Positions 7,967 to 48,014 of a stretch of DNA of 64,000 nt are shown one piece after another. The notes beneath the pieces were generated by a model. That model ran no database searches. It was given only the letters and a program-made list of their open reading frames with translations, and was not told the origin of the DNA. Every line of letters starts with the position of its first letter. Position 1 is the first letter of the stretch. Origin of the DNA: Parazoarcus communis. Lineage in GTDB: Bacteria; Pseudomonadota; Gammaproteobacteria; Burkholderiales; Rhodocyclaceae. Location: NCBI RefSeq assembly GCF_003111645.1, contig NZ_CP022187.1, positions 1,860,001 through 1,924,000 on the forward strand, in the 5' to 3' direction. The translations under genes and the position numbers were made by a program.

Positions 7967-8029
7967 GCACGCAGCACGCGCTATGATTCAGGCCAGTACT
8001 GTCTGCCAATGACCGCAAGGAGAACCTGC

Positions 8030-14341: not shown

Positions 14342-14387
14342 ATTCGGACACCTAGAAAACGTTCGGAATGATTCAGGCAGCATCAGC

Positions 14388-14431
14388 TGCACAATGCAAT
14401 ATCCTTGTGCGGGCAATCATACTGCAATGCA
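14388..14431. promoter_or_regulatory. TGCA-dyad motif cluster in the manC/cysD divergent intergenic region
   Basis: The 261-bp gap between divergent manC and cysD holds TGCACAATGCA (14388-14398) and the exact dyad TGCAATGCA (14423-14431). The same dyad recurs near a PEP-CTERM gene (27136-27149) and near the eps genes (52422, 52506). The palindromic form suggests a dimeric regulator site (inference). Nothing else was recognised in this gap. Confidence 0.35.
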
Positions 14432-19929: not shown

Positions 19930-21005
19930 GCGTGCGAATCCTTCGCATCGCGGCCCGCGTAGTTTGCCGACACCCACTCGCGGTAGGCGCCGCTCTGCAC
20001 ATTGGCCACCCACTCGGGATTGGCCAGGTACCACTCGACCGTCTTGCGAATGCCGGTCTCGAATGTTTCGGCCGGGCGCCAGCCCAGCTCACGCTCGACC
20101 TTGCGCGCATCGATTGCATAGCGCCGGTCATGCCCGGGGCGGTCGGTCACATAGGTAATCAGGCGGCTGTAGCTGCCGGCCGCATCCGGCTTCAACTCGT
20201 CGAGCAGCGCGCACACGGTATGCACGATGTCGAGGTTGGGCTTCTCGTTCCAGCCCCCGATGTTGTACGTCTCGCCAAGGCGGCCGTTCTGCAGCACCGC
20301 GCGAATCGCGCTGCAGTGATCCTTTACGTACAGCCAGTCACGCACGTTCTGTCCGTCGCCGTAGATCGGCAGCGGCTTGCCCGCGAGGGCATTGACGATC
20401 ATCAGCGGGATCAGTTTTTCGGGGAAATGGTAAGGACCATAGTTGTTCGAGCAATTGGTCGTCACCACCGGCAGGCCGTAGGTGTGAAACCACGCCCGCA
20501 CCAGGTGATCGGACGCCGCCTTGCTCGCCGAGTACGGGCTGTTGGGCTCGTACGCATGGGTCTCCGCAAAGGGCGCCTCGTGCGCGGCGAGCGAGCCATA
20601 CACCTCGTCGGTGCTCACATGATGAAAGCGGAACGCCGCCTTGGCCTCGCCTTCGAGCGCGCCCCAGTAGGCGCGCGCGGCCTCGAGCAGGGTGAAGGTG
20701 CCTTCGACGTTGGTGCGCATGAACTCGCCCGGGCCGTGGATCGAGCGATCCACGTGACTCTCGGCAGCAAAGTGCACGATCGCACGCGGCCGGTGCTCTG
20801 CCAGCAGACGATCGACCAGTTCGCGATCGCAGATGTCGCCCTGCACGAAGACGTGACGCGTGTCGCTGTCAAGCGACTTCAGTGTCTCCAGATTGCCCGC
20901 ATAGGTGAGCTTGTCGAGGTTCACCACCGGCTCGCCGGTTTCGGCAATCCAGTCGAGAACGAAATTGCCGCCAATGAAGCCCGCACCGCCGGTTACCAGA
21001 ATCAC
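19926..21005 (-). CDS. rfbB: dTDP-glucose 4,6-dehydratase
   Basis: 359-residue extended SDR, second pathway step and first gene of the rfbBDAC operon. [12 protein letters not shown] nucleotide site, [12 protein letters not shown], the [11 protein letters not shown] motif and the [15 protein letters not shown] catalytic Tyr-x3-Lys are intact. Supplies rhamnose donors for the EPS glycosyltransferases further along (inference), although LPS use is equally possible. The 148-bp gap upstream holds no further gene. Confidence 0.96.
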
Positions 21006-26413: not shown

Positions 26414-27079
26414 CTACCGATTGCGCCGGCGTGCAATGGTGCCCAGCAGGCCGAGACCGGCAAGCATCATCGCGTAGGTCTCGGGCTCGGGCACAGCAGT
26501 CACACTGGTATCGGTTCGCAGCGTGCTGACGAAACTCTCGCTATTGCTGCCGAGCGAAATCACATGCAGGCCAACACGCAGATCTCCCGAACTGATGCCA
26601 GATACCACATCCGAGAAACTCGTGCCGCTCGTGAGATCGAAGCTCACCGTGAGCGTCTCCCCCGTATTCACACCGTTTGACGGTTTCGGATTGGCTGCGC
26701 TCACGGAGAAATCGGATGAAAAACTCACCGTATTGCCCGACGGAACGTTGCTCGGGCTTCCACCCAGCGAAAAACTCACCCCGGAGGACGACAGAACCGT
26801 CGCTGACGAGAAGTTGAGCAGACCAAGGCCATCGAAGTACACGTTGGCGATCGAACCATCACCAACCGTGTTGCCGAACACAAAGGAAACCGCCCCCCCC
26901 AGGTCACTCAAAGAAAGTGACAATCCGGATTCAAAACTACTGCTAATACCAGAATTATTAGTAATACTTAAAAAACCGATATCTGTAGACGAAGCCTCGA
27001 CGACCGAGGCGGATGCAATCGTCGACAGCGACAACAGGAGTGCAGCAGACAGACGCTTGGGCAGGATGGCAAGTGTCAT
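26414..27079 (-). CDS. PEP-CTERM sorting domain protein
   Basis: 221-residue exported protein: signal peptide (LSAALLLSLSTIASASVVEA), Ser/Thr/Gly-rich body with few charged residues and no Cys, then the sorting signal VPEPETYAMMLAGLGLLG followed by ARRR. This VPEPxTYAMMLAGLGL form is shared with the protein at 54258 and is expected to be processed by XrtB encoded in this window. It diverges from a second PEP-CTERM gene. The upstream gap holds a tandem TGCA dyad. No enzymatic domain recognised; probably a matrix or surface protein. Confidence 0.88.
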   Translation of the reverse strand: MTLAILPKRLSAALLLSLSTIASASVVEASSTDIGFLSITNNSGISSSFESGLSLSLSDLGGAVSFVFGNTVGDGSIANVYFDGLGLLNFSSATVLSSSGVSFSLGGSPSNVPSGNTVSFSSDFSVSAANPKPSNGVNTGETLTVSFDLTSGTSFSDVVSGISSGDLRVGLHVISLGSNSESFVSTLRTDTSVTAVPEPETYAMMLAGLGLLGTIARRRNR

Positions 27080-27135
27080 GGCGTTCTCTCAAGAAGGGAG
27101 GATGGATTCGAGACTCAATCATTGCAGATTCTTGC

Positions 27136-27149
27136 TGCACTGCAATGCA
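27136..27149. promoter_or_regulatory. Tandem TGCA-N-TGCA-N-TGCA motif between divergent PEP-CTERM genes
   Basis: TGCA repeated three times at 5-bp spacing (TGCACTGCAATGCA) lies 57 bp upstream of the minus-strand PEP-CTERM start. It is the most complete example of the dyad seen at 14423, 52422 and 52506. The rest of the 338-bp gap (27080-27417) is AT-richer than its surroundings and shows no clear RpoN site. Confidence 0.4.
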
Positions 27150-27417
27150 ATTTCTCACAGGCCCTGCATTTCTCTGAACAAGTACGGAATGCGGCGCATC
27201 ACGACCAGTCAGGCATATGCTGCAGCGCACCACCAACCCGATAACTGTCGGATTTTTTTACACGCAGCAAGGCATCAGGAAGGCGACTCAAGGGCACCCG
27301 CCAGCAAACACTTGATTCGTTGGCAATTCTCCAAAAAACCAAAATATGGAACGATTTTTGCTATCTATGTCCGAACTGTCGAATTCGACATAACCGCAAC
27401 ATAGTGAGTGAAATCTC

Positions 27418-28251
27418 ATGACATTCCAGAAAATCGCAGCCGCCCTCGCACTCTGCGCCTTTACGCCGCTCTCGATGGCAGCCATCATCGCCAGCGACAA
27501 CTTCGACTACGCCACAGGCGAAGTCGCAGGCCAGAACGGCGGCAGCGGCTGGGCCGGTGCATGGTCTGCCAACACCGGCGTCACACAGGTCGTTACCCCG
27601 AGCACCTCACTCGGCGGCAGCAACGCCCTGCAGGTGACCGGCAACAACAACAATGCCGCCTACCGCCAGCTCAGCTCGGCCTTTTCCGGCAACAGCCTCT
27701 TCGTGGATTTCTACATCCAGCTCGACGCCGGTGTTCTGTCTGCAAATGACTTCCTGGGCCTGTGGCTCGATACCGCCAGCACGGGCGATCACACGAACCG
27801 TCCGAACATCGGCATCAAGGCCGACGGCAGCGGCACCAACGACGTCTTCGTCCGCACCAACGGCACGAATGGCGCTTTCGCAGCCAGCAGCAACATCGGC
27901 ACCACCAACGACATCACCTATCACATCGTCGGCCTGCTCTCCCGCACCGCACCGGGCAACTACACGAGCTTCTCGATGTGGCTCGACCCGATGTTTGCGG
28001 ACTTGAGCACGCCCGACGCCGTCATGACCGGCAACACCGGCCTGTCGCAGATCAACTACGTCGGCTTCCGCTCGGTCAACCTCGACAGCGGCGACGTGCT
28101 GCTGATCGACGGCCTCCAGCTCTCCACCACCTGGAGCGAGGCCCTGCGCATCAGCACAAGCACCACCAATGACGTACCCGAACCCGGCACCGCGGCCCTC
28201 ATCGGCCTTGGCCTGCTCGGCCTGGGTCTGTCGAAGCGTCGCAAGGCCTGA
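27418..28251 (+). CDS. PEP-CTERM sorting domain protein
   Basis: 277-residue exported protein: signal peptide (IAAALALCAFTPLSMAA), an LamG-like beta-sandwich-type body (IIASDNFDYATGEVAGQNGGSGWAGAWS; later FRSVNLDSGDVLLIDGLQLS), then VPEPGTAALIGLGLLGLGLS and KRRKA. The sorting motif differs from the TYAMMLAGLGL form of its neighbour, so it may be a weaker XrtB substrate or be served by another exosortase. A good intrinsic terminator follows. Confidence 0.88.
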   Translation: MTFQKIAAALALCAFTPLSMAAIIASDNFDYATGEVAGQNGGSGWAGAWSANTGVTQVVTPSTSLGGSNALQVTGNNNNAAYRQLSSAFSGNSLFVDFYIQLDAGVLSANDFLGLWLDTASTGDHTNRPNIGIKADGSGTNDVFVRTNGTNGAFAASSNIGTTNDITYHIVGLLSRTAPGNYTSFSMWLDPMFADLSTPDAVMTGNTGLSQINYVGFRSVNLDSGDVLLIDGLQLSTTWSEALRISTSTTNDVPEPGTAALIGLGLLGLGLSKRRKA

Positions 28252-28294
28252 ACGGACGCAAGGCACAGCGCCCATCGGGGCGCACGGCATTAAG

Positions 28295-28320
28295 AAAAGA
28301 CCGCTGCGGCGGTCTTTTTT
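28295..28320 (+). terminator. Rho-independent terminator after a PEP-CTERM gene
   Basis: Stem GACCGC / GCGGTC extended by A4/T4 pairing, 4-nt loop, followed by T6. Located 44 bp after the stop at 28251. The remaining 305 bp up to the next PEP-CTERM gene (28321-28625) show no gene and no recognised promoter. Confidence 0.85.
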
Positions 28321-28625
28321 CGTTTGGATCGGACAAGCCTTCAGTTCAGTCCCTGAACCCGCGCGGCGTCATCAGCCTGCGGCCCGCAGAATGCGAACTC
28401 AGCCGGCCTGGAGAACCGGGTATCTCTCGCGAACGCCCCTGCGCGGCGCCAGATACAGGCGTCCCCGCTCAGGGATTCACAATCCTGAAAATATCCGCGG
28501 ATATCCTTCCGAGACTGAACTCAGATTCCGCATGTCATTTTCAGGTTCGCGCCGAATGACGACCAGCAAGCTGAAATCAGCGTTGTCAGCCCGCCCCCCT
28601 TCCCTCCCGACCCAAATACACGCCC

Positions 28626-29399
28626 ATGAAAACCCTGCCCCTGCTCGCCACTGCTGCCGTACTGTCTGCGGTCGCCACCCCTTCCTTCGCCCTGGTCTAC
28701 ACCATGACCGACAACCTGACCGGCGCCTTCAGTGCCTCAGGCTTCCAGGACGCAAACCCGAGTACCTACAACATCAACGTCCGTGACCTCGACGGCACCG
28801 TTAACCTGTACACCCCGCCCGCCGGCAGCCACACGACCGCCATCAGCGGCAGCCTGCTGCTGAACCTCTTGCCGGGTTCGAACCCGGCCCTGTCTGCGCC
28901 GTGGGATGTCGCCTTCAGCATTCCCGCCATTGCCAACATCTTTACCGCCGTGCTGTCCGGCGTTGCAGATACCGGCGTACGCACGTTCGCCTTCCAGCCC
29001 GGCACCCCAGGTGCAAATGACGGTGTGGCAATCGGCTCCGGAACCTTCAGGCTTACCTATGATGAACAGATCGCGCCTGAGATCCAGGCCACGCTGTACG
29101 CACTGACCGGCATGGCGATGCCGTCGAACGGCGCAGGCTCGATCGACGTACTGTACAGCCTGTTTCAGGACGGCTTCGATCTCGAGATCAGCGAGACGGC
29201 CACGACCTGGCCCGGCTTCGGCGTCGCACTTGCAGCCATCAACAGCGCAGTCGGAAGCACACCCAACCTGCTGGCGGGCGACTTCTCGGTAAACCAGCTT
29301 CAGGTCAGCAGCACTCAGGTGCCGGAACCCACCACGCTGGCACTGCTTGGCATCGGCGTTGCCGGTCTGGGCACACTTCGCAGGCTCAGGCAGGCCTGA
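28626..29399 (+). CDS. PEP-CTERM sorting domain protein
   Basis: 257-residue exported protein: signal peptide (TLPLLATAAVLSAVATPSFA), beta-rich, Cys-free body, then VPEPTTLALLGIGVAGLG and a basic end (RRLRQA). The LALLGIGVAGLG type matches the common generic PEP-CTERM signal rather than the TYAMMLAGLGL type. No domain was recognised. It is convergent with the sugar nucleotidyltransferase gene that ends the EPS operon. Confidence 0.87.
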   Translation: MKTLPLLATAAVLSAVATPSFALVYTMTDNLTGAFSASGFQDANPSTYNINVRDLDGTVNLYTPPAGSHTTAISGSLLLNLLPGSNPALSAPWDVAFSIPAIANIFTAVLSGVADTGVRTFAFQPGTPGANDGVAIGSGTFRLTYDEQIAPEIQATLYALTGMAMPSNGAGSIDVLYSLFQDGFDLEISETATTWPGFGVALAAINSAVGSTPNLLAGDFSVNQLQVSSTQVPEPTTLALLGIGVAGLGTLRRLRQA

Positions 29400-29533: not shown

Positions 29534-30637
29534 TCAGCCCCGCGCATCCCCCCAGCGCAGTTCGATGGAATCGTCCCCAACATAGGTGGCGTTGCCACTT
29601 CGATCAACGCAGTACTGAAAGGAGAGGATCTTCTCTTCCACCGTCTGACTTTCTCCCAGCCGCGTGTAGTCGAACAGCACACTGCGCTCAACGCGCGAAC
29701 CCGCGCGCAGGTGGCAGCCACGGCCGATCCACGTGGGACCAATCACCGAAACACCCGGCTCAATGCGCACGTTCGAACCGATATAGCATGGCCCCACAAT
29801 CGTCACGCTGTCCCACGCAATCGACGTGTTCAGACCCACCCACACACCCGGCTTGATCTCGCGACCGGGCATTTCCATCTGCGCCACCTCGCCACGCAGT
29901 ACGCGCTGCAGCACTTCCCAGTAGTCGGTCAGACGACCGATGTCGATCCAGTTGAAGAAGCGCTTCTGCGCATAGAACGGCACGTCCTGTTCGACCAGCA
30001 ACGGAAACAGCTCGCTGCCGATATCAAACTCGCGCCCCGGCGGAATCATGTCGATCACCTTGGGCTCAAAGATGTAGATGCCGGTACTGGCGAGGGTGGA
30101 CAGGGCCTCTTCGGGCGACGGCTTTTCCTGGAAGGCCTTGATCCTGCCTTCATCGTCGGTCACGACCACACCGTAGTTCTTAACCTGCTCACGCGGCACA
30201 TCCAGTGCTACCACGCTCGCCATCGCGCCCTTGTGACGGTGCTCGTCCAGCGCCGCGCCAATATCCAGATCGACGATTGCGTCCCCGCACATCACCAAGG
30301 TGGTTTCGTCGAAGAAGCCACCGAAGTCCTGGATCTTCCGCATGCCACCGGCCGACCCCATGGCCTTGGGCACAATGTCACCGTGCTCGCGCTTGCCCTC
30401 GTAGGAATAGCCGATCTCTACGCCCCAGCGATGCCCGTCGCCAAAGTAGTTTTCGATCTTGTAGTGATTGAACGCCACGTTGATCATGATCTCGCGGATG
30501 CCGTACCTGGCCAGGTGCTCGATCAGATATTCGAGCACCGGCTTGTTCAGAATCGGCACCATCGGTTTGGGCAGGTTCTTCGTCAGCGGGCGAACCCGCG
30601 TTCCCTGGCCTGCAGCCAGAATCATTCCCTTTGCCAT
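29534..30637 (-). CDS. Sugar-phosphate nucleotidyltransferase (mannose-1-P guanylyltransferase-like, two-domain)
   Basis: 367 residues: N-terminal Rossmann transferase (KGMILAAGQGTRVRPLTKNLPKP, LVMCGDAIVDLDIG, FQEKPSPEEA) and a C-terminal left-handed beta-helix (VGLNTSIAWDSVTIVGPCYIGSNVRIEPGVSVIGPTWIGRGC, residues about 255-310). It makes an NDP-sugar whose identity cannot be read from sequence; GDP-mannose or a related activated polyol or sugar are options. ATG 30637 has AGGGAG 7 nt upstream. Last gene of the EPS operon, together with the SDR and MenD-like genes. Confidence 0.85.
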   Translation of the reverse strand: MAKGMILAAGQGTRVRPLTKNLPKPMVPILNKPVLEYLIEHLARYGIREIMINVAFNHYKIENYFGDGHRWGVEIGYSYEGKREHGDIVPKAMGSAGGMRKIQDFGGFFDETTLVMCGDAIVDLDIGAALDEHRHKGAMASVVALDVPREQVKNYGVVVTDDEGRIKAFQEKPSPEEALSTLASTGIYIFEPKVIDMIPPGREFDIGSELFPLLVEQDVPFYAQKRFFNWIDIGRLTDYWEVLQRVLRGEVAQMEMPGREIKPGVWVGLNTSIAWDSVTIVGPCYIGSNVRIEPGVSVIGPTWIGRGCHLRAGSRVERSVLFDYTRLGESQTVEEKILSFQYCVDRSGNATYVGDDSIELRWGDARG

Positions 30638-30694
30638 GATCAATCTCCCTTTTACGTATTAGTTGAACCCGGTAGCACTCAAGAGAGCGAAAAA

Positions 30695-31570
30695 TCAATC
30701 GCCCTTCAGCCCAAGAGACCTGCCACCATCGACGATGAAATTCTGCCCGGTAATAAAGTTGGCCCGGGGAGAGGCAAGATAAGCCACCATCTCGCCAATA
30801 TCCTCAGGCTTACCGTAACCACTCAACCAGTTCGTCTTGCTCAGTTGCTCAAGCTCCGAAGCGCTGATCTCGCCACGCTGGACAATCCCCGGCGAAACGC
30901 AGTTTGCCGTAATTCCGAACGGTCCCAGTTCCATTGCGATGGACTTGGTAAAGGCGATCACCCCGCCCTTTGAAGCCGCATACTCGGCGAAATTGGCCTT
31001 GCCTTGCACGCCCAAGACACTGGAGATATTGATGATCCGACCGGTCTTGGACGGCACCATCGCCTTGGCCGCCTCCCGGCAGCACAGGATTGCCCCCCTC
31101 AAGTTCACGTTCAAGACTTGGTCGATGACCTCTGTCTTCTGCCCGATCAACGAGGAGTACTCGTCGCGTGCGCTCCCCCCTGCGCTATGAACCATGATAT
31201 CGAGTCGGCCGTGACGTGCGGTGACCTCCGCGAAAGTCCGCACAATATCAGCCTCATCCGTAACGTCTAGGCGCTGCGGATAGGCTTTACCCCCTAAACC
31301 GACAATCTCGGTAACAACAGAGTTGATTTTGTCCGGACTCATACCGCAGACATAGACGATAGCCCCTTCGGCTGCAAGGCAGCACGCAATACTCCGCCCG
31401 ATGGATCCGCTTCCGCCCGTGACGATCGCGACCTGGTTCTGCAGCACACAGCCATCCGCAACCCGTATCTCGTAGGGGACGGTAACCGGAATCCGCGGGG
31501 CCAACCCGTCACGCAGCGAACGTAATTTATTACGGACGCGACCAGGAACAAATTTCTTAAGCAACCTCAT
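30695..31570 (-). CDS. Short-chain dehydrogenase/reductase
   Basis: 291 residues. A 45-residue basic N-terminal extension precedes the Rossmann motif VAIVTGGSGSIGRSIA (TGxxxGxG), then a VHSAGG motif, NISSVLGVQG (catalytic Ser), YAASKGG (Tyr-x3-Lys) and SPGIVQRGEI. Classical NAD(P)-dependent SDR, FabG-like. In this operon it probably reduces or oxidises a sugar intermediate, perhaps in the same route as the MenD-like enzyme (inference). It starts 13 bp after the wzx stop. Confidence 0.85.
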   Translation of the reverse strand: MRLLKKFVPGRVRNKLRSLRDGLAPRIPVTVPYEIRVADGCVLQNQVAIVTGGSGSIGRSIACCLAAEGAIVYVCGMSPDKINSVVTEIVGLGGKAYPQRLDVTDEADIVRTFAEVTARHGRLDIMVHSAGGSARDEYSSLIGQKTEVIDQVLNVNLRGAILCCREAAKAMVPSKTGRIINISSVLGVQGKANFAEYAASKGGVIAFTKSIAMELGPFGITANCVSPGIVQRGEISASELEQLSKTNWLSGYGKPEDIGEMVAYLASPRANFITGQNFIVDGGRSLGLKGD

Positions 31571-31583
31571 GACTGAGTATCCT

Positions 31584-33110
31584 TTAACTTGGCTTGCCAA
31601 AACGGCGGGCGAATATGTCGAGGACTATCCGACGCTCATCGCGATGCAATCCGATCACGGCAACCGCCGCGACAACCGAGATTCCTGCAACGGCACAAAC
31701 AAGAAAAATGCCAAAGAGCGTCTCGGGCGCATGGTATTTCACGGCCAGCGGAGCAAGAGGCGCTAGCATCAGAACAGCACCGCAGCGCAGCCCCACATCC
31801 CGCGCAAAGAGCATCATCGGAAGAGCGATCGAATGCCGCAGAAAGTACAGTCGGGCAACCGCTATCAGCGCCGACAGGACAATGGCGACGACAAAGACAA
31901 TCTCAGGGGCGAACCCCTGGCTCAGGAAGACATAACTGATGGGTAAATTCGTCATGCCGATGGTGCTGACCGTCAGGTGATATGTCCTGACCTTTCCCGT
32001 CGCCGCCTGAGCCGTTCCAGTCACGCCCGCGAAGCTCTCGACCAATGCTTGAATCAGGACCAACTGAATGAAGACGACAGTATGCTCAGGTACAGTCGAG
32101 AGCCAGATTCCGAGCAGGGCCTCGGCTTCGATCAGTACCGGCAGGACCATCAATAGCACCAGGAAAAACGCAAGGCGGGCGCCCTTCAGCACCAGAGTAT
32201 GCATCTGCGCAAGATCGCCCGCTGCGTACGTCTTGACGATTTGCGGATTAAGCGCCTGGATGAAGCTGCTCGTGAAACTCTGTAACGCGTTGCTCACCTG
32301 AAGAGCGAGCCCGAAGGCTGCATTGACCAGCGTGCCGAAGATCAGGTTCAAAATAACATTCGTCCCCTGCAGGCGCAGCACGACCGAGAGATTGCTGAGA
32401 ATGCTCCAGGACGAAAAGGACAATATTTCGCGAAACAGACGGGGGTCACGAGCAGGGCGCGTATGGCATTCCGAAAAGTTCCGGCGCGCATACCAGCCAT
32501 AAACACCTGCGACGAGCGCTGCAACCACCAACATCAACACGGCATAGACCTGCAACCGGTCTCCAGAAACCCTGAAAAGCGCATAGGCGACAGCCAGCCT
32601 AAGTCCCACATCCACAATACTGACGTATGCGAATGCGGCCATCCGCTCATTGGCAATAATCGCTGCGTTAAAGGGTGCCGTGACGACATTGACCAGGAAA
32701 GCCAGCAAGGCACACTGATAGACCCAATTCGCGGCGTCCATCCGGTCTGGTGCAATATTCAACTGTGTATTCAGGAACCACAGCCCCAGCGTCTCCGCAA
32801 TGAGCAGAATGACCACCGCCAGCATCAGATGGATGAAAAGACTCGTGGCGAAGACGCGCTGCACATCGTCCGACGTACCTGACCGTCCTTTCTCGAAGTT
32901 CAGGAAGCGCTGCGTGGCGGCCGTCATCGCAGCGTTCAAGAACCCCATCAGGACCATGAGCCCGCCAACCAGGCTGAACAAACCGAAATCGCTGACCCCC
33001 AAGGCCTCGAGGATGACCCTCGAGGTATAGAGTGCAACAACCGTCGTCAGGAGCGTACGAAAATAGAGCGCCAGTGTGTTCCTGGCAATTCTGCGGCCAT
33101 GATGTTCCAT
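31584..33110 (-). CDS. Wzx-type oligosaccharide flippase
   Basis: 508-residue integral membrane protein with about 12-14 hydrophobic segments, starting RRIARNTLALYFRTLLTTVVALYTSR, the usual Wzx/MATE-like (MOP superfamily) N terminus. It flips the undecaprenyl-PP-linked repeat unit to the periplasm. Only flippase candidate in the window, next to a MenD-like gene (15 bp) and an SDR gene. AT-richer than the eps export genes, as is usual for repeat-unit-specific genes. Confidence 0.85.
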   Translation of the reverse strand: MEHHGRRIARNTLALYFRTLLTTVVALYTSRVILEALGVSDFGLFSLVGGLMVLMGFLNAAMTAATQRFLNFEKGRSGTSDDVQRVFATSLFIHLMLAVVILLIAETLGLWFLNTQLNIAPDRMDAANWVYQCALLAFLVNVVTAPFNAAIIANERMAAFAYVSIVDVGLRLAVAYALFRVSGDRLQVYAVLMLVVAALVAGVYGWYARRNFSECHTRPARDPRLFREILSFSSWSILSNLSVVLRLQGTNVILNLIFGTLVNAAFGLALQVSNALQSFTSSFIQALNPQIVKTYAAGDLAQMHTLVLKGARLAFFLVLLMVLPVLIEAEALLGIWLSTVPEHTVVFIQLVLIQALVESFAGVTGTAQAATGKVRTYHLTVSTIGMTNLPISYVFLSQGFAPEIVFVVAIVLSALIAVARLYFLRHSIALPMMLFARDVGLRCGAVLMLAPLAPLAVKYHAPETLFGIFLVCAVAGISVVAAVAVIGLHRDERRIVLDIFARRFGKPS

Positions 33111-33125
33111 TCATTCAGCTCAGTA

Positions 33126-34892
33126 TCAACGGAACAGTTTGGGCAGTTTGCGTCTGAGTCGGCGCCGCACTCTATCGCCGAAGGTAAGCTTGTCCAGCTC
33201 CTGCAGATAGGTCTTTAACTGGCGGACGTCGTCCTCCTTGACACTGAAGACCTCGACCAGGATCGGGCCAGACTCCGCAGGATTGGTTAAAACGTCAATT
33301 GCGGCGTCGCATTCCTCGCGCGTCGTCGCCGCCAGATAGCGGAAACCCACCGACTCCACCCAGCCCTTTGCCGAGGTCGCATGTCCTGCCGAGATGTGGC
33401 GCGACAACTGCGGCGCCAGTCCCTCGCTCAGCGGCATATGCATGACCCCACCACCCTCGTTGTTGAGCATCAGAATGCGCAGATTCTTCGACAGATGCCG
33501 GTTCCACAGGGCGTTCATATCGTAGAAGAAGGTAAGGTCGCCGATGACCAGGTAGACAGGATCGGACGTCGCAGCGGCGAAACCCACCGCAGCGGACATG
33601 CAGCCGTCAATTCCGTTTACACCTCGGTTGCAATAGGCCGTGACCGATGGGTCCGAACGGAACAGGTGCACCATGCGGATCGGAAGGCTGTTCGCGATAT
33701 GCAATTGCGCATTCTTCGGTAGCTTTCGAACCAACTGACCTACGGCATGAATTTCGCCAAAATCTACTTGCGGCTCTTCGATAGCGCCATCAACCTCGGA
33801 CCAAGCCTCGTAATAATCCATTCCGCCCTGCTGCTCGGCCTGCTCACACATCTTCTCGAAGAAGAAGCGCTCCCGAACCTCAAAGACGGTCGACAGTCGT
33901 CGGAAAGGGTCGGAGACGCGACTGGTTCCAAGATCCCATACTTCGAAGGGTCTGCCAGTCGAGGAGAGATACCCTTTAAGCTCTCCGTTGAACGTGTAGT
34001 TTCCGAAGAGTGTGATGACAACGTCAGGAGCCAATTCAGTAGTCTGCTCCAGCGTCATCGAGCGCAATGCAAGATAGGCCGTTTCAATGGTGCGCGAGGT
34101 GTGGCAGTTGGACAGTTTGTCCGCCAGGATCACACAATCGAAGCGCTCGATGAAACGCTCGACCGCCCGGCTTAGCGCTTCGTCCGTCGGTGCCGACTGC
34201 CCCCAGACGATCATGATCTTGCGCCCCGAGAGCCAACTCGCATATCGCTGCCAGATCTCTGGATCATCATCGCCGCGAACGCGAGAAATCTTGCGCACCT
34301 TGGGAAGGCTCTCGGTAGAGAACTTGTCGGTGTGATGACTTTCCACAGGAAAGTTGAGATGCACCGGTCCGCGACCGTGGTGGTCAAGTTCGAGGAAGGC
34401 TTCGTTGATCACCCGATTGCAGTACCACTCCGAAAGCCCGTCCTTAACCTCCGGCAGTTGCCCCTGATAGCGAATAAAGCCGTCATAGACATCCTTCTGA
34501 AGGAACATCTGCTCTTCCTTCTGATTGAGAAGCTCTGGAAGGCGATCCGCCGTCAATACCACGAGCGGCAACCCTTGATAGAAGGCTTCCACCACAGCAG
34601 ACCCATAATTGATCGCCGACGTGCCCGAGGTGCAGCAAACCGCGACCGGGGCACCAGAATTCTGAATCAAACCGAGAGCGAAGAAGGCTGCACTGCGTTC
34701 ATCTACAACAGAATATAGCGAAAAATCCGGATCCCGCTCCAGGGACCGCACCAGCGGATAGTGTCGGCTACCCGGCGAAATCACGACACTCAAGATGCCA
34801 TGTTGCTTCATGAGGGAGATGATCTGAAGAATCAACTTATTGTCTGAATACACGCTTATGTTCTCATCGAGTTTATCGAACCCATTGCACAT
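33126..34892 (-). CDS. MenD-like thiamine diphosphate-dependent enzyme in an EPS operon
   Basis: 588 residues, MenD length. It aligns along its whole length with SEPHCHC synthase: SPGSRHYPLVRSLE, VVDERSAAFFALGL (catalytic Glu region), CCTSGTSAINYGSAVVEAF, LVVLTADRLPELL, and the ThDP/Mg site NRGVNGIDGCMSAAVGFAAA with GDLTFFYDMNALW and LNNEGGGVMHM. The GANQ-type isochorismate segment of true MenD is replaced by NQKEEQMFLQKD. No other men gene is nearby. The likely role is C-C bond formation on a sugar or other EPS precursor (inference). ATG 34892 is used; the longer frame begins at a TTG. Confidence 0.8.
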   Translation of the reverse strand: MCNGFDKLDENISVYSDNKLILQIISLMKQHGILSVVISPGSRHYPLVRSLERDPDFSLYSVVDERSAAFFALGLIQNSGAPVAVCCTSGTSAINYGSAVVEAFYQGLPLVVLTADRLPELLNQKEEQMFLQKDVYDGFIRYQGQLPEVKDGLSEWYCNRVINEAFLELDHHGRGPVHLNFPVESHHTDKFSTESLPKVRKISRVRGDDDPEIWQRYASWLSGRKIMIVWGQSAPTDEALSRAVERFIERFDCVILADKLSNCHTSRTIETAYLALRSMTLEQTTELAPDVVITLFGNYTFNGELKGYLSSTGRPFEVWDLGTSRVSDPFRRLSTVFEVRERFFFEKMCEQAEQQGGMDYYEAWSEVDGAIEEPQVDFGEIHAVGQLVRKLPKNAQLHIANSLPIRMVHLFRSDPSVTAYCNRGVNGIDGCMSAAVGFAAATSDPVYLVIGDLTFFYDMNALWNRHLSKNLRILMLNNEGGGVMHMPLSEGLAPQLSRHISAGHATSAKGWVESVGFRYLAATTREECDAAIDVLTNPAESGPILVEVFSVKEDDVRQLKTYLQELDKLTFGDRVRRRLRRKLPKLFR

Positions 34893-35016
34893 TATGCAAA
34901 AAGGCAACCCTGTAAATCTAATATTTAGATAGCAGTTCCGAGCATCCGCGAAATTTAAACTTCAACCAAATTCATATTCCAATAATTTAACCTAGATACA
35001 CAAACTGTAAACTGAA

Positions 35017-36126
35017 TCATTCCTCTATCGCTCCAAGCAAAAAATCTGCTGAATCGCTCTGAAGCTTCGGCAAAACGTCATCGACAGTTGAGTAGTCGAC
35101 TGCCGTACCGATGAGCTCTTGCAGCCTGCTTTTGTCGTCGTATTCATTCAGCAGCAGCCTGGACTCCAGGTTGAACCCCCCAAGTAAGGACGTAAAACGT
35201 GAAAGTCCCCGACCGGAATTCCCAAGAGCGATGAAATTCTTCCTGAAGATGATTGCAAAAACAGTCCCGTGAAAGGAGTCGGTAACAATAAAGTCGGCAT
35301 GTTTGAACTCGCTTACCCACTCTGAAACCGATGCATCGGATTGCAACCCAAGTTCTCGCAGGACATAATGCTTGCCGAGCATCTCACGGGCGTCCCCAAC
35401 CAACTGTGACTTATCCTTGGCGCGGTCAAGGATGTACGTAAGCATGCGCTTCGTCCCTGAGACTTCCTTGGACTGCGGGACAGTAATCCTGTCGTATAAA
35501 CTCGCATCCACTAGCAGAGTGGGATCCAGGACATGGCGACAATCCGTACGCCCCAAGGCTTCACATATCGGCACGCCACTCTGCTCTCGCGTCGATACGG
35601 CATGAAAATCCGCAAGCAGGGGCTTTATTTCCTCGATCATGTCCGGAGCCTGCCAATGATCCATACCGAATGACGCCGCATAGGCGATTTTTCGAGTGTG
35701 CATGGAATCAACAAAGCTCAAAAAATACCTGGACGGATCATACGAAATGTAGTCCCACCTCCAGACCTGATCACTCCCAACGATCACGGCATCGAATTTT
35801 TCTCTGCTTGCAGCTCGTCTAAACTCGGCCTCGGAGCAGGCCTTTCGAGTTTGGCGGACGATATATTCACTCAGGAATTTCTCATGCCTTGAAGTCTTTT
35901 CGTATCGCTCCCGAATTCCGTTAAAATTCTGCCCCGGAACTCTTTCAAGCAAGGTTACGATCACCTTCTTTAGTGCCGGATTAAGACGCCTTCCCTGCGG
36001 CCCGTCATTACCGATCGATGTAACTCTATACCCCTTCTCATTCAGGAAACTATGCAGCGCGACAGCCTGTAGCATTCCACCGTAGTTTCCATCCCGGGGT
36101 AAATTCAAAATTCCTATATGCTTCAT
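35017..36126 (-). CDS. Polysaccharide pyruvyl transferase family protein
   Basis: 369 residues. NYGGMLQAVALHSFLNEKGYRV at the N terminus, VIVGSDQVWRWDY, the ASFGM and STREQSG segments and C-terminal DFIVTDSFHGTVFAIIFRKNFI are typical of the PS_pyruv_trans family (CsaB/WcaK-like). It would move pyruvate from PEP onto a sugar of the repeat, giving an acidic ketal. AT-rich 124-bp (34893-35016) and 223-bp (36127-36349) gaps on either side show no gene. The acceptor sugar is unknown. Confidence 0.85.
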   Translation of the reverse strand: MKHIGILNLPRDGNYGGMLQAVALHSFLNEKGYRVTSIGNDGPQGRRLNPALKKVIVTLLERVPGQNFNGIRERYEKTSRHEKFLSEYIVRQTRKACSEAEFRRAASREKFDAVIVGSDQVWRWDYISYDPSRYFLSFVDSMHTRKIAYAASFGMDHWQAPDMIEEIKPLLADFHAVSTREQSGVPICEALGRTDCRHVLDPTLLVDASLYDRITVPQSKEVSGTKRMLTYILDRAKDKSQLVGDAREMLGKHYVLRELGLQSDASVSEWVSEFKHADFIVTDSFHGTVFAIIFRKNFIALGNSGRGLSRFTSLLGGFNLESRLLLNEYDDKSRLQELIGTAVDYSTVDDVLPKLQSDSADFLLGAIEE

Positions 36127-36349: not shown

Positions 36350-37801
36350 CTAGCCCACAACTCGTCCATATGTATCCTCGAAGCGCACGATATCGTCCTC
36401 ACCCAGGTAGCTGCCCGACTGTACCTCGATGATCTCCAGCGGCACCTTGCCGGGATTCGCCAGGCGGTGAGTGTGACCCAGCGGGATGTAGGTGGATTCG
36501 TTCTCGCCCAGCAGGAAGGTACGCTCGCCGTTGGTGACCTCAGCCGTGCCCTTCACCACGATCCAGTGCTCGGCGCGGTGATGGTGCATCTGCAGGCTCA
36601 GCGTCGCGCCCGGATTCACCACGATGCGCTTGACCTGAAAGCGCTCGCCGAAGTCGATCGAGTCGTACCAGCCCCACGGGCGATACACCTTGCGGTGGCT
36701 GCGCGTCAGGCTCTTGCCCTCGGCCTTGAGCCGTTCCACGATTTTCTTCACGTCCTGGGTGCGGCTCTTGTGCGCCACCATCACCGCATCGGCGGTTTCC
36801 ACCACCACCATGTCGTCGCAGCCCACCGCCGCCACCATGCGGTGCGTGGCGTGCACCAGGGTGTTGCGGCTGGATTCGAACATCACTTCGCCACGCCCGC
36901 TGTTGCCGTCGCCATCCTTCTCCGACACCGCCCACAGCGCGTCCCACGCGCCCACGTCCGACCACCCGGCCGACAGCGGCACCACCACGCCCTGGCCAAG
37001 TTCGGGCGCAGTGCCCAGCTTTTCCATTACGGCGTAGTCGATTGAATCCGACGGGCAGGCGACAAACGCGGCCTTGTCCACACGCAGGAAGTCGGCATCC
37101 ACCGAGCGCCCTGCAAACGCCGCATCGCAGGCTGCACTGATATCGGGGCGGAAATGCGCCATCGCCTTCAGCCACACCGAGCCCTTCATCATGAAGATGC
37201 CGCTGTTCCAGAAATATTCGCCGCTCTCGACGTAGCGGGTGGCGGTGTCGGCATCCGGCTTTTCGACGAACTCGGCCAGCACGCGGGCGGTGTCGGTGTC
37301 ACCCGCCAGCGGGCCGACGCGGATATAGCCGTAACCGGTTTCGGCGCGATCGGGCACGATGCCGAAGGTCACCAGGCGACCGGCCTCGGCCTGCGCCGCC
37401 CCTTCGGCAATGGCCTTCTGGAACGCGGGCACATCGACGATCACATGGTCGGCCGGCATCACCAGCAGCACCGGGTCCTTGCCCTCGGCCGTCGCGGCAA
37501 GCCCCGCCAGCGACAGCGCCGGCGCCGTGTTGCGGCCCACCGGCTCGAGCACGATCTGCGCCGAGCGCACGCCCACCTGGCGCATCTGTTCGGCGATGAT
37601 GAAACGGTATTCCTCGTTGCTCACCACCAGCGGCTGTGCGTCCACCTCGCCGCCCGCGTAGCCATTGAGCCGCACCACGGTTTCCTGCAGCAGCGAGTGA
37701 TCGCTGGTCAGCGGCAGCAACTGCTTGGGATAGGACTCACGCGACGCGGGCCACAGCCGCGTGCCGGAACCACCAGAAAGAATTACCGTCTTGATCGCCA
37801 T
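36350..37801 (-). CDS. manC: Mannose-1-phosphate guanylyltransferase / mannose-6-phosphate isomerase, copy 2
   Basis: 483 residues, differing from copy 1 at only five positions seen (for example VKKIVERL for VKKVVERL, DTARV for DSARV, DVPAFQ for DVAAFQ, VVG for VAG at the end). It provides GDP-mannose inside the EPS operon. The last seven codons differ from copy 1 at nine bases although the peptide is almost the same. This points to recent gene conversion that ended short of the stop. ATG 37801 as in copy 1. Confidence 0.95.
   Translation of the reverse strand: MAIKTVILSGGSGTRLWPASRESYPKQLLPLTSDHSLLQETVVRLNGYAGGEVDAQPLVVSNEEYRFIIAEQMRQVGVRSAQIVLEPVGRNTAPALSLAGLAATAEGKDPVLLVMPADHVIVDVPAFQKAIAEGAAQAEAGRLVTFGIVPDRAETGYGYIRVGPLAGDTDTARVLAEFVEKPDADTATRYVESGEYFWNSGIFMMKGSVWLKAMAHFRPDISAACDAAFAGRSVDADFLRVDKAAFVACPSDSIDYAVMEKLGTAPELGQGVVVPLSAGWSDVGAWDALWAVSEKDGDGNSGRGEVMFESSRNTLVHATHRMVAAVGCDDMVVVETADAVMVAHKSRTQDVKKIVERLKAEGKSLTRSHRKVYRPWGWYDSIDFGERFQVKRIVVNPGATLSLQMHHHRAEHWIVVKGTAEVTNGERTFLLGENESTYIPLGHTHRLANPGKVPLEIIEVQSGSYLGEDDIVRFEDTYGRVVG
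36373..37801. repeat. 1.43-kb direct repeat, unit 2 (manC)
   Basis: Partner of 12913-14341 in the same orientation. The two units bracket a 22-kb stretch holding cysDNC, rfbBDAC, three PEP-CTERM genes and the end of the EPS operon. Recombination between them would delete that stretch. Confidence 0.9.
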
Positions 37802-37870
37802 GTCCCAGCTCCAATATTCCATCACAATTTACTGTTCAGTCGCTGTCTTGCTGCCACAAGGATTGCGGAC

Positions 37871-40107: not shown

Positions 40108-43026
40108 TTATTCACTTGCAGCCTTACCCAGCCCGTTCTCCGCGCGAGTACCGTGACGGAGTGCAAAGATGCGATCTACCAGCAAGGCGTCCGTGGAAGC
40201 GCCTCGACCAACTTGAATGTAAATTCCTTTCGCATGATCTTTCGTCATTACGAAAGGACCACCGGGAATCAGGATCTCGGTGTAATTTCCGTCTCCAAGC
40301 CTTGCTGCATCGAGTCGGGTCGAGGCCCGCGAACCCGGATAGGCCCCCAAGATGGCAGCAAAATCGTGGCCAGACTGACTGGGAGCATCGATTCGAACTC
40401 GTGCATACAAGTCCCAACGCCCCTCCCCTGGAAGCCGATCGAGCTTGAGGTGTATCGCCCACGCGCGCTCGTTGCCTGGAATCCTTGCTGCGGCAGCATC
40501 GGATGCCTGCGGGTCGGGAACAATGCGTGCCCGTCCGTAAAGGTTGAAAGACAGCTCTTGAAAGTCGACCCAATCGGCCGACTTCAAGCCCTGGACGACA
40601 CTCGGCGCTTGTGGCGGCCGTCGCTCAATGGCGAGCAGTTCCCGCAAAGCTGTGATCGAGCCGTCCTGGCGGTACGCTTTCACCCCTTCGGCTGATATCG
40701 CCGCCCAGAACCGTGCCTGTCGCACCTCCATGGCGGGGTCCCACTCCACTCCCTCGCGCATCGCCATCGCACTCAACGCTGCACGATTCACCAGTGCTAC
40801 GTAGTCAACTGACATTCGTGCGGCACGGACATGACTGAGCCGCTGCGGATCACCGGCAACGGCCACCTCAGCCTCGTCAAACAGCCGGTCAGCAAGCGCA
40901 ATGAATCGCACGCCAAACATGCGCTGATCGACATGCGACTTCTCTGCGAGCACGTCACCATGCTCGTCGATCGCTTGATGCATCAGATCGATATATTCAA
41001 GGATCTGAGCACCGGCAGCACCGTAGTAGTACGTGCAGAACTCAGCAACCAGCGCGCGCACATCCTGATCCGGATTCCACAACAGGCGAGCTATCAACCA
41101 CGCTCTGAGCGAGGCGAATTCAGCGCCACGTGTGTTCCAGCTACCTTCTGCGAAATATCCGTTCACGTTTGGCAAGCCTGCAAGCCAACGGATGCTCTTT
41201 CCGATCGGGTAGATATTCGGTGTCGGCTGCAGGAAGCCACTGAAGTTGGTGATGTGATCCCACACCAGCACGTTTTTCGCAATCCGGCTCCAGCCAGCGA
41301 TATCTTCACCCAACTGCCGGTTACTGCCCTCATTGAGCGGGTAGCGGTAGTCAACATGAATCGTCATCGGAAAAACCATGACGTGGTCGGGCACACGCAT
41401 GCCGGCTGGCGGCGAAAAGCTCCAGTGATACGCATTGAACGCAAACCGGGCGCCCGGCATGTGTTTGCGGACGCGCTCGGCAACATCGATCACCATGTCC
41501 AGCCGTGGTGCGGCAGGAGACCCGCCGTGCTGCTCGGCAAAGCGGCGGCTCGCCGGGTCCATGTCCCAGCCCCAATCCATGTCATGGATGTCGAACCAGA
41601 TGCTGCGGTAATCGGGGTGTTGCTTGAGACGCTTGATGATGCCCTCGGCCATGGCCTGCCGCATGTCGGGATTCATCATCGCGACCTGCCCACCCGCGAA
41701 CCATTCCGGATGCAGTCTTTCGCTGTTCTTCTTGTCCAGCAAGGCCCAGAACGTGCCGTCGCCCCCCTTGGCACGCCAGCTCCGGTCCCAGGTATCGATC
41801 TCGGGCGGCCCGGGCTGAAACGAGGGCCCGTGCGACTCTCCGTTCAGCAGGTTATGCGCACGGAAGCGCTTGTCCTCGCCCTCCGAACTCAGCACCTCGC
41901 GATACGAGAAGCGCGGCACCTGGCGTTCGGTTACCGGCGCGATCGCAAGTCTGGTCTGGCGCGGGATATGCACATAGGTCGGGCTGAGCCACTTTACGCC
42001 GAGCTTGCGATCAAGAAACCAGTTAACGCCGTACATCGTCCCGCGCGAAGTCTGGCCGGCAATGAGGATGTGTTCGCCAACCGTCCGGATAAGGAAGCCG
42101 TCCTCGCCCAGGCCCTCGAACGACAGATCCGGCGCCAGTGCGGCCATCGCCTTTGCGCCCTGCCCGACGACGATCAGACGCTGTGCGCTGCCATCGCCAG
42201 ACGATGTCAGCGGCAGGAAGCCCGAGCCTGTGATCAATTGCAGATAACGGGCAAGCTCTCCAGCCGCGTGCATGGTCACCGCGTCTGCGTCGACGGCGAC
42301 CTGAATGCGGTAGTTGCTCCGGCCGGGCTCTGAAAGGGTGAGCAGCGGTGGTGTCTGGCGAGCCGGCGGACGGTCCGCGACGCCGGCAACAGGCACTGGG
42401 GTCGCACCATCTGCCTCAAGCAGTTCTGCCGCAAGTTCATCACGCCGCAGCGTCGCCGCGGTGTCGACCGGATCGGTGGTCGGCTCCACCCTCACCGCAT
42501 CAAAATAGGCTGCGCCATTCGTTCCGCTGACCTTGCGCAGGTACAGCAGGAGTTCGCTTGCGCCCTCAGGCGCTGCGACAACGACCGAATGCGGGCGCCA
42601 GGTGGATGTCTCGCCGGTCACGAAAAGTGCCGGTTCGGTTCGCCCGCCCAGTGCCACCCGTGCCGGGCCAACCCAGCCCTGATCGACCCCCTCACCCCGA
42701 TAGCTCAGCTGAACGAAAACCGAGCCTGCGGGTGCGTTCTCACCTCGAATACGCATGCTGATCCGGTAACGACTGCCCCCCTTGATGGCGCGCTTGTCCT
42801 GGGCCACGAAACCGCCCGTGACCCGCATCGAGGCATTGCCCTCGGCGGCACCGCCGCTGACAACGTCGCCCTTGCCCCACCACGGCGACTTGCCCGCCTC
42901 AAAGCCGCCATTGGCGATAACCAGCGCACCGTCGCCGGGCTCAGCTGCCAGCGCAAGCGGCGACAGCATCAACCCGGCAAGCAGGGCGACGAGCGCCCAC
43001 AGAATGGGGAGAATCCTTACTTCCAC
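40108..43026 (-). CDS. Large exported DUF4838 / alpha-glucuronidase-like protein
   Basis: 972 residues with a signal peptide (LWALVALLAGLMLSPLALA-AE). Residues about 30-180 form a carbohydrate-binding-like beta-sandwich (IANGGFEAGKSPWW...FDAVRVEP). From about 215 there is the glycosidase N-terminal segment (YRIQVAVDADAVTMHAAGELARYLQLITG) and then the DUF4838 core (YGVNWFLDRKLGVKWLSP, WFDIHDMDWGWDMDP, FNAYHWSFSPPAG, EGSWNTRGAEFASLRAWLIARLLWNP). A further beta domain closes the protein. The GTG start at 43026 overlaps the upstream GT2 stop by 10 bp. It probably trims or modifies the EPS in the periplasm or outside (inference); catalytic residues were not assigned. Confidence 0.75.
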   Translation of the reverse strand: MEVRILPILWALVALLAGLMLSPLALAAEPGDGALVIANGGFEAGKSPWWGKGDVVSGGAAEGNASMRVTGGFVAQDKRAIKGGSRYRISMRIRGENAPAGSVFVQLSYRGEGVDQGWVGPARVALGGRTEPALFVTGETSTWRPHSVVVAAPEGASELLLYLRKVSGTNGAAYFDAVRVEPTTDPVDTAATLRRDELAAELLEADGATPVPVAGVADRPPARQTPPLLTLSEPGRSNYRIQVAVDADAVTMHAAGELARYLQLITGSGFLPLTSSGDGSAQRLIVVGQGAKAMAALAPDLSFEGLGEDGFLIRTVGEHILIAGQTSRGTMYGVNWFLDRKLGVKWLSPTYVHIPRQTRLAIAPVTERQVPRFSYREVLSSEGEDKRFRAHNLLNGESHGPSFQPGPPEIDTWDRSWRAKGGDGTFWALLDKKNSERLHPEWFAGGQVAMMNPDMRQAMAEGIIKRLKQHPDYRSIWFDIHDMDWGWDMDPASRRFAEQHGGSPAAPRLDMVIDVAERVRKHMPGARFAFNAYHWSFSPPAGMRVPDHVMVFPMTIHVDYRYPLNEGSNRQLGEDIAGWSRIAKNVLVWDHITNFSGFLQPTPNIYPIGKSIRWLAGLPNVNGYFAEGSWNTRGAEFASLRAWLIARLLWNPDQDVRALVAEFCTYYYGAAGAQILEYIDLMHQAIDEHGDVLAEKSHVDQRMFGVRFIALADRLFDEAEVAVAGDPQRLSHVRAARMSVDYVALVNRAALSAMAMREGVEWDPAMEVRQARFWAAISAEGVKAYRQDGSITALRELLAIERRPPQAPSVVQGLKSADWVDFQELSFNLYGRARIVPDPQASDAAAARIPGNERAWAIHLKLDRLPGEGRWDLYARVRIDAPSQSGHDFAAILGAYPGSRASTRLDAARLGDGNYTEILIPGGPFVMTKDHAKGIYIQVGRGASTDALLVDRIFALRHGTRAENGLGKAASE

Positions 43027-46381: not shown

Positions 46382-47080
46382 TCAGTTGCGCGACTGATAC
46401 TTCAGCCCGGCGATACGTGCGCGATCCTGAACTCTCAGCTGACTAATCATGCTTTGAAGGAAATCACCCTGTAATGAAAACGCACGTTCGCTGTCAGGGT
46501 CGATGCTGGACAGGCGAAAGATCAGCCCATCCGGAATCAGTCCTTTCAATCCATATTCGAGCTCTACGATTCGCCGCTGAAAAAGACTCGATATGGCAAC
46601 GTCACCTACTGTGGTCCAGTAAGTGAGCGGCTCAAAGCGTGAACCAGCTCGGGTTTCCATGCGAACGACCGGTATATTTCCATAAGGAGTGGGCAACAGC
46701 CCGCCCTGCGTGGATGTCACGGTGAAGCCCTGTGCGGGATAACAGAAATCGGGCTTGTGCGCCTCCAATTCCCCACGCTGATCCTCGCCATATGCGACTG
46801 ACAGCATGACGCGCTCGCCGGCCTCACTGATGTAGATCCGATTAATCACTTGTGAATAGAGCTTGTCCAGGAGCACGCTTGCCTGCGGATTGACGACCTC
46901 GACCGGCGTGCTGTCGAGACGTTGCCACCCTTCGAAACGATCCGGCAGCACGGCTTCGAGATCGAGTTTGGTGCCCAGATCGGAGAGCTTGATGACCGGC
47001 TTGAAATGTTCGGCCACGACGAGCGAGAGCATCATGATCACCGCAAGTGCGATGGCTACGGGCAAACTGAGCGCCTTCAT
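46382..47080 (-). CDS. epsI: Exosortase B-associated protein EpsI
   Basis: 232 residues with an N-terminal membrane anchor (LPVAIALAVIMMLSLVVAEHF) and a periplasmic domain. Family features visible: LPDRFEGWQRLDS, then YSQVINRIYIS, and the conserved HKPDFCYPAQGFTV (Cys-Tyr-Pro-x-Gln-Gly). The EpsI family accompanies or is fused to exosortases and is needed for EPS export or PEP-CTERM processing; its biochemistry is not settled. The start overlaps the xrtB stop (ATGA). Confidence 0.9.
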   Translation of the reverse strand: MKALSLPVAIALAVIMMLSLVVAEHFKPVIKLSDLGTKLDLEAVLPDRFEGWQRLDSTPVEVVNPQASVLLDKLYSQVINRIYISEAGERVMLSVAYGEDQRGELEAHKPDFCYPAQGFTVTSTQGGLLPTPYGNIPVVRMETRAGSRFEPLTYWTTVGDVAISSLFQRRIVELEYGLKGLIPDGLIFRLSSIDPDSERAFSLQGDFLQSMISQLRVQDRARIAGLKYQSRN

Positions 47081-47943: not shown

Positions 47944-48014
47944 TCTGCACTCCGGCGTCACCCTCGCGACATGTGCATGCGCTCGGCGAGTGGGGGGCGT
48001 TCAAGAGATCGCCC

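Follow-up and report, generated by a model that had tools for sequence, protein, structure and literature searches.

A MenD paralogue of polysaccharide gene clusters, linked to pyruvyl transferase and reductase genes, as a candidate ThDP-dependent ligase

Known systems and the layout of the locus

The two substrates of MenD (SEPHCHC synthase, EC 2.2.1.9; NCBIfam model TIGR00173) have been assigned to individual residues in the Bacillus subtilis enzyme. In the active-site account given there (PMC2914249), Arg409 and Arg428 bind 2-oxoglutarate, with Arg409 serving both substrates, Arg32, Arg106 and Lys299 bind isochorismate, and Ile489, Phe490 and Leu493 form a non-polar patch; the corresponding description of the L. 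monocytogenes MenD structure agrees with these roles (PMC12312563). ThDP enzymes also build branched sugars. The relevant parts of a 2025 review (PMC12247030) divide them into three classes, YerE-like, alpha-ketoacid dehydrogenase type and transketolase, and describe how YerE, ErwE and their relatives put acyl units on CDP-keto sugars of O-antigen; the word MenD does not occur in that review. As to pyruvylation, the characterised transferases CsaB and WcfO use lipid-linked glycans as substrates, and WcfO had no activity on UDP-galactose, according to the passages on these enzymes in a review (PMC6801904) whose main text contains neither of the words MenD and thiamine and describes no coupling to a ThDP enzyme. 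Among the papers listed by a literature search restricted to open-access work, none was seen to describe MenD homologues that take part in making polysaccharides.

The window analysed here, a stretch of 64,000 nucleotides of the Parazoarcus communis chromosome, contains an operon transcribed in the order ManC-like gene, PF04230 pyruvyl transferase, MenD-like gene, Wzx, SDR and nucleotidyltransferase (Table 1), embedded in a larger EPS region of the exosortase type (exosortase being named by sequence reading). The MenD-like reading frame on the minus strand is open over 33126-34907, which gives 593 aa if counted from a TTG; the boundary at 34892 in the initial annotation is an in-frame ATG, and codon 19, a GTG, lies at the usual start position among homologues. 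The pyruvyl transferase gene ends 109 bp from the open start of this frame, the Wzx gene starts (33110) 15 bp downstream of the MenD-like gene, and the Wzx and SDR genes overlap by 17 bp. The flippase was assigned no family in the first Pfam search of the neighbours, and its score against the NCBIfam WZX_like model (26 bits) was far under the cut-off of 300. The TGGxxxIG and YxxxK motifs are both present in the SDR sequence.

Several features surround this operon. Three proteins with PEP-CTERM-like anchor ends (VPEP...) are encoded at 26414-29399, just outside it, and exosortase-like and EpsI-like genes at 46382-47961, toward its other end (all named by reading). The EPS region also encodes, at 40108-43026, a secreted-looking protein of 972 aa with a DUF4838, a GH67 N-terminal-like domain and a carbohydrate-binding module. 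The ManC-like gene at 36350-37825 has a counterpart at 12890-14416 of the window, with 98.8% identity over 484 residues, which suggests a recent duplication or gene conversion.

Table 1. Positions of the MenD-like gene, its marked segments and the neighbouring genes in the window
Feature	Position	Strand	Basis or remark
ManC-like sugar nucleotidyltransferase, upstream neighbour	36350..37825	-	name from sequence reading alone, without family search
Polysaccharide pyruvyl transferase family protein (PF04230)	35017..36126	-	Pfam, 106.4 bits; gathering score 25.3
MenD-like ThDP enzyme	33126..34853	-	probable GTG start at 34853, where most homologues begin; 575 aa
Changed acceptor-side segment NQKEEQMFLQKD of the MenD-like protein	34491..34526	-	residue comparison
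C-terminal basic helix of the MenD-like protein, residues 558-575	33129..33182	-	charge count and AF2 model
Wzx-type flippase	31584..33110	-	PF01943 match, 43.8 bits; cut-off 28.2
Classical SDR reductase with basic N-terminal extension	30695..31600	-	adh_short_C2, E 2.6e-56; 191.3 bits, gathering 27
Sugar nucleotidyltransferase with hexapeptide repeats	29534..30643	-	Pfam NTP_transferase

The MenD-like protein scored 304.1 bits against TIGR00173 (cut-off 244.2) and at most 34.4 bits against models of the acetolactate-synthase type, and its closest solved relatives are MenD. An AlphaFold2 model had a mean pLDDT of 90.8, and the best 50 of its 422 structural matches (E 0.001) were all MenD. They superposed poorly as whole chains (TM 0.42-0.54, rmsd 18-20 A), so that the domain arrangement of this single-chain model is unreliable and we draw no argument about the pocket from it. 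These searches bear out the layout given in the initial annotation, a full-length MenD homologue directly before Wzx and in line with a pyruvyl transferase, an SDR and a nucleotidyltransferase, and the MenD motifs quoted there are present in the protein.

The MenD-like clade, its genomes and its active-site residues

We scanned a collection holding one genome per species (84,980 species) using a single query and carried forward the top-scoring 80 out of 250 candidates, so that the size of the clade described below is a lower bound. The 80 loci split cleanly into a set with men neighbours (menF/menB/menC/menE) and a set without men genes in the examined flanks; men labels rest on blastp comparison with a small number of annotated men proteins, and the ORFs of the other loci are greedy calls in which genes can be missed. 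None of 26 clade loci had a men gene in the examined flanks, some of which are short, as against 57/57 loci of the Bacteroidota type and 17/20 others among the comparison MenDs. In a tree of 67 proteins, the window protein falls within a clade of 27 rows (support 99/95), whose sister is the group of Bacteroidota men-operon MenDs (94/92). Thus, on its placement in the tree, the MenD-like protein is a MenD paralogue, belonging to a separate lineage sister to the menaquinone MenD of the Bacteroidota type. The phylogeny proposed as a check in the initial annotation accordingly returns a separate clade situated in polysaccharide clusters, beside Wzx and SDR genes.

Clade members occur in Bacteroidota, Bacillota, Verrucomicrobiota, Spirochaetota and Pseudomonadota (Zoogloeaceae), and the clade has apparently moved between phyla with polysaccharide clusters. 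The window protein groups with a Parazoarcus protein, the two adjoining Bacteroidota members, a placement that suggests horizontal transfer of its gene. Among 60 relatives examined, one of the four same-genus genomes carries the protein (78% identity), and ten further genomes have a distant MenD, with a menF-like gene adjoining in 8/8 loci examined. No other close relative was found in 369 genomes of the class, the host included; the next best match (33%) lies beside a menF-like gene. Searches of whole genomes, many of them drafts, found a further MenD homologue in 8/26 clade genomes and none at E 1e-15 in the remaining 18. In Bacteroides xylanisolvens XB1A (L094) and a Phocaeicola genome bin (L081), the second copy is situated in a men operon; the two forms of MenD thus coexist there as paralogues. 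Separately, an Azospirillum megaplasmid carries a lone MenD (L037, 11896-13767) whose flanks contain no annotated men gene, with EboA/EboE-type and UbiA-type genes nearby.

The host chromosome is complete (4.57 Mb) and contains no second MenD; the only other match (E 1e-6) is an acetolactate synthase. Models of menB, isochorismate synthase and menA gave nothing over their curated cut-offs in this genome. Below the cut-off, the isochorismate-synthase model matched TrpE and PabB, and the menA model matched a prenyltransferase for which the best NCBIfam names are DHNA polyprenyltransferases, all likewise below cut-off. This evidence speaks against a role of the MenD-like gene in menaquinone synthesis, in line with the non-menaquinone role proposed by the initial annotation. 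The models searched do not show a complete menaquinone pathway in a genome that lacks any other menD, and the protein does not fall inside the canonical MenD clade with its isochorismate residues intact.

We then counted active-site residues in 28 clade members and 77 comparison MenDs, using the B. subtilis numbering. The clade retains the ThDP glutamate, Ser405, Gln118 and Arg409 in 28/28 and Arg428 in 27/28; in the comparison MenDs, Arg409 is present in 73/77 and Arg428 in 77/77. On the isochorismate side, Arg32 is found in 22/28 and Arg106 in 22/28 (Lys in five more), as compared with 76/77 and 77/77, respectively. Lys299 and Leu493 are absent from all 28 members, and Phe490 is present in 18 (Met in 9), whereas the comparison MenDs have Lys or Arg at position 299 in 70/77 and Leu or Ile at position 493 in 77/77. 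As Lys299 is also missing from seven comparison MenDs (five Bacteroidota, two others), its loss is not diagnostic by itself. The residue preceding Gln118 is Asp or Glu in 26/28 clade members but in 0/77 comparison MenDs: the segment NQKEEQMFLQKD, which the initial annotation had singled out as a changed isochorismate-contact region, reads Glu-Glu-Gln where comparison MenDs have, for example, Asp-Gly-Gln or Ala-Asn-Gln. The window protein itself keeps the ThDP glutamate, Arg409 and Arg428, and has Arg, Arg, Gly, Val, Met and Pro at the positions of Arg32, Arg106, Lys299, Ile489, Phe490 and Leu493, respectively. Taken together, the counts show a donor side that is kept and an acceptor side that is changed. 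From the retained residues we infer 2-oxoglutarate as the probable donor; the acceptor may be a carboxylate-bearing compound close to isochorismate, as Arg32 and Arg106 mostly remain.

The comparison set showed variation of its own. Phocaeicola-type men-operon MenDs (L061, L067, L080, L092 and L104) have Gly at the position of Lys299, and in their operons menB and menC are separated by an ORF of 841-868 aa; four Bacteroidota men-operon MenDs (L064, L069, L075 and L078) have Tyr at the 2-oxoglutarate-binding Arg409.

A more distant MenD-like form was found on plasmid pRUMAL01 of R. albus 7 (L034), in B. xylanisolvens (L153) and in an Akkermansia genome (L155). Members of this second subfamily share 43-49% identity among themselves and 29-32% with the window protein, and they have also lost Arg106 and Arg428; with Arg428 gone, their donor may differ. 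The R. albus protein is one of the 27 rows of the clade, with a very long branch, and one of the 28 members counted above, among which it is the exception in several residue columns. The second-subfamily genes are likewise beside PF04230 and reductase-type genes. In the Akkermansia genome, a GT2-SDR fusion (6234-8264) lies close to the MenD-like gene, another SDR and a PF04230 gene; the R. albus cluster carries annotations for LicD, an aminotransferase and a cytidylyltransferase, for which a phosphonate role was considered. Two second-subfamily proteins scored 172.7 and 163.1 bits against the menD model, under its cut-off, whereas all three main-clade proteins tested passed it. Annotation would therefore name main-clade genes of this kind MenD, and some genomes without a menaquinone pathway are likely credited with one.

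Pyruvyl transferases, reductases and basic tails

As an assessment of gene coupling, we compared 29 MenD-like genes (the main-clade gene of 27 genomes plus two added second-subfamily genes) with 70 control flippase genes, namely those PF01943 genes of the 27 genomes whose distance from a MenD-like gene exceeds 15 kb; the controls may include MurJ- or SpoVB-like proteins. In whole-genome searches, a PF04230 gene was located within 5 kb of 26/29 MenD-like genes (24/27 main-clade genes and both second-subfamily genes) but of 4/70 controls, within 3 kb of 24/29 and 2/70, and within 10 kb of 26/29 and 6/70, respectively; the rows are related by descent, and the Fisher value of this comparison is not a true probability. 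The three genes without PF04230 within 5 kb comprise two that have it about 11 kb away (G373 and G387) and one on a 7.6-kb contig with none (G380). When the eight Bacteroidota genomes G370-G377 were counted by hand, PF04230 lay within 5 kb of 8/9 MenD-like genes and 0/35 flippases, and within 10 kb of 2/35 flippases. Eight other MenD homologues of the clade genomes, which were excluded from the 29 and treated as men-type (two were seen in men operons), had no PF04230 gene within 10 kb by the same kind of count.

The PF04230 proteins linked to MenD-like genes are somewhat clustered in their own tree but do not form one clade. They require 12 changes on it, as compared with a mean of 16.9 after shuffling, and 8/500 shuffles gave a value as low; the tree used 50 of 54 matches, with four broken-gene pieces in one genome (G384) dropped and three ambiguous rows treated as a group of their own. 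We therefore rejected co-inheritance of the pyruvyl transferase from a single origin, and the result speaks for recruitment on several occasions, or for a common need, rather than for a block inherited as a whole. The link may also be partly a reflection of cluster type. One PF04230 protein close to a clade member (L053, 4257-6494) is fused to a domain of the FrhB/FdhB type.

A reductase of one of four types lies near the MenD-like gene in 26/28 loci, a raw count at the MenD-like loci alone. A relative of the classical SDR is beside the gene in 22/28, namely in 20 as an intact ORF, in one (L047) in two pieces, and in the window. Four loci have unrelated reductase-type genes instead: an aldo-keto reductase (L042), a protein with a GFO/IDH/MocA C-terminal domain (L050) and extended SDRs (L058 and L034). 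The remaining two had no reductase nearby (L044, and L054, where the contig ends). The substitution of unrelated reductases for the SDR suggests that the ThDP product has to be reduced; against this, sugar clusters commonly contain epimerase-type proteins such as the ones encoded at L058 and L034. The nucleotidyltransferase was strongly conserved solely in the same-genus locus (L045, 92%), with weak matches in two others (L056 and L060) among 27 loci, and was rejected as a member of the module. Of the joint building-block pathway proposed in the initial annotation, the SDR thus stands as a conserved partner and the nucleotidyltransferase does not.

Other neighbours were sorted into families using 128 of 145 selected genes on the MenD strand within five genes of it (17, mostly short or very long, were dropped), with the SDR, PF04230 and Wzx clusters excluded. 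Glycosyltransferases were frequent among these 128 proteins.

The clade is also marked by its C-terminus. After the conserved C-terminal Glu, its members have a median of 45 residues (38-58), as compared with 23 (13-44) and 24.5 (5-60) in two comparison groups, and the last 25 residues of 27 clade members carry a mean net charge of +5.5 (3 to 9), as compared with +0.8 (-2 to 4) and +0.2 (-4 to 3); in both length and charge the groups differ yet overlap. In the window protein, the tail is predicted as a helix at 558-574, in a block modelled with moderate confidence (pLDDT 65-75). Most of the SDRs have a basic N-terminal extension, as read by eye without a statistic. Together with the action of CsaB and WcfO on lipid-linked glycans, the basic tails found on both the MenD-like protein and the SDR suggest a membrane location for the module, with a lipid-linked repeat unit as its substrate. 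By analogy, the substrates of these pyruvyl transferase relatives (as given in the passages on them in PMC6801904) point to a lipid-linked repeat unit as an acceptor at least as likely as a nucleotide sugar. The strong coupling to the pyruvyl transferase, the swapped reductase types and the basic tails are features that the initial annotation had missed.

Proposed function and comparison with known systems

On balance, we consider it probable from these sequence comparisons that the protein is a 2-oxoglutarate-using ThDP C-C ligase with an acceptor other than isochorismate, whose ketone product would be reduced in the course of polysaccharide repeat-unit assembly. In more general terms, the best-supported reading is that a ThDP ligase derived from MenD takes part in polysaccharide assembly with a changed acceptor, and that it is coupled to both a pyruvyl transferase and a reductase. 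The MenD-like enzyme would decarboxylate 2-oxoglutarate and pass the remaining four-carbon carboxy-acyl unit on to a sugar-linked acceptor, attaching it at a carbonyl carbon or a conjugated one, and the new ketone would be reduced by the nearby reductase, the SDR in the window. The PF04230 enzyme, acting in the same pathway and on the same repeat unit, would either cap the new hydroxyls or prepare the acceptor. These steps would take place at the membrane, on a lipid-linked glycan, and the finished repeat unit would be exported by Wzx.

A more specific version, in which the three enzymes form one pathway of the Stetter type on the lipid-linked repeat unit, is a long shot. The PF04230 protein would add a PEP-derived enolpyruvyl group, and the MenD-like enzyme would then use the rare conjugate addition known from MenD to join the carbanion derived from 2-oxoglutarate to the carboxylate-bearing double bond of that group. 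Reduction of the ketone by the reductase would leave the sugar with a branched dicarboxylic ether of seven carbons. Such a pathway would account for the loss of Lys299 alongside the usual retention of Arg32 and Arg106; no case of Stetter chemistry on a glycan was noticed among the papers listed by the open-access literature search.

Among the alternatives to a ligase of this kind, we regard as doubtful the idea that the enzyme is a decarboxylase only, releasing succinic semialdehyde from 2-oxoglutarate for the SDR to convert to 4-hydroxybutyrate, which would become an acyl or ether group on the polysaccharide. The retained 2-oxoglutarate residues and the frequent reductases fit such a route. 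However, no acyl-activating family is among the top 25 of the 126 families matched by the 128 neighbour proteins, and the conserved Gln118, the mostly conserved Arg106 and the new acid point to a shaped acceptor site.

It is unlikely that the enzyme follows the logic of YerE with another donor, taking its unit from a 2-oxo acid other than 2-oxoglutarate and adding it to a nucleotide-linked 4-keto sugar, with the SDR then reducing the product to give a branched sugar. The O-antigen pathways of YerE and ErwE provide the precedent, RmlB-like and RmlD-like genes (named by reading) are found at 19042-21005 of the window, and the loss of Arg428 in the second subfamily would agree with a change of donor. 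Yet the window's own clade keeps both 2-oxoglutarate arginines, and each sugar epimerase or dehydratase family matches just 6 to 8 of the 128 neighbour proteins.

Still less probable is a loose co-location in which the three enzymes each make an ordinary decoration of their own and the clusters simply gather tailoring genes. The origin of the linked PF04230 proteins from several lineages and the abundance of glycosyltransferases nearby are what this explanation would predict; the difference between MenD-like genes and control flippases in PF04230 linkage, and the presence of unrelated reductases where the usual SDR is missing, speak against it. Finally, that a true MenD of the menaquinone pathway sits in the EPS operon by chance is extremely improbable and was rejected, even with a score over the menD cut-off and fold matches to MenD, since isochorismate synthase, menB and menA are all without a match over cut-off in the complete genome, acceptor residues are lost, two other clade genomes (L081 and L094) also have a men-operon MenD, and in the 18 genomes, many of them drafts, without a second homologue at E 1e-15 the clade member is not a spare copy.

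The MenD-like protein is like MenD in its family, its ThDP site, its 2-oxoglutarate arginines and, for the most part, Arg32 and Arg106. It is unlike MenD in forming a clade of its own, in having lost Lys299 and Leu493 throughout, in the acid before Gln118, in its longer and more basic C-terminal tail, and in its location in polysaccharide clusters with no men genes seen nearby. What is new is the tight link of this clade with PF04230, along with the nearby reductase and the basic tails; the neighbour at 35017-36126 belongs to the same family as the ketal-pyruvyl transferases CsaB and WcfO. If the proposed function is correct, ThDP chemistry would have arisen independently once more for surface sugars, in addition to the three classes set out in PMC12247030. 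The proposal predicts that bacteria of the gut, the rumen and the environment carry a module of two to three genes that gives a sugar a carboxylated modification.

For YerE-type branched sugars, such as yersiniose and erwiniose, a ketone-reducing partner is known. By analogy, the MenD-like enzyme resembles the YerE-like lyases as a ThDP enzyme serving a surface polysaccharide, whereas the models set the two groups apart, the score for menD far exceeding those of the acetolactate-synthase type. The closest functional parallel to the MenD-like enzyme and its reductase would be YerE plus a ketoreductase.
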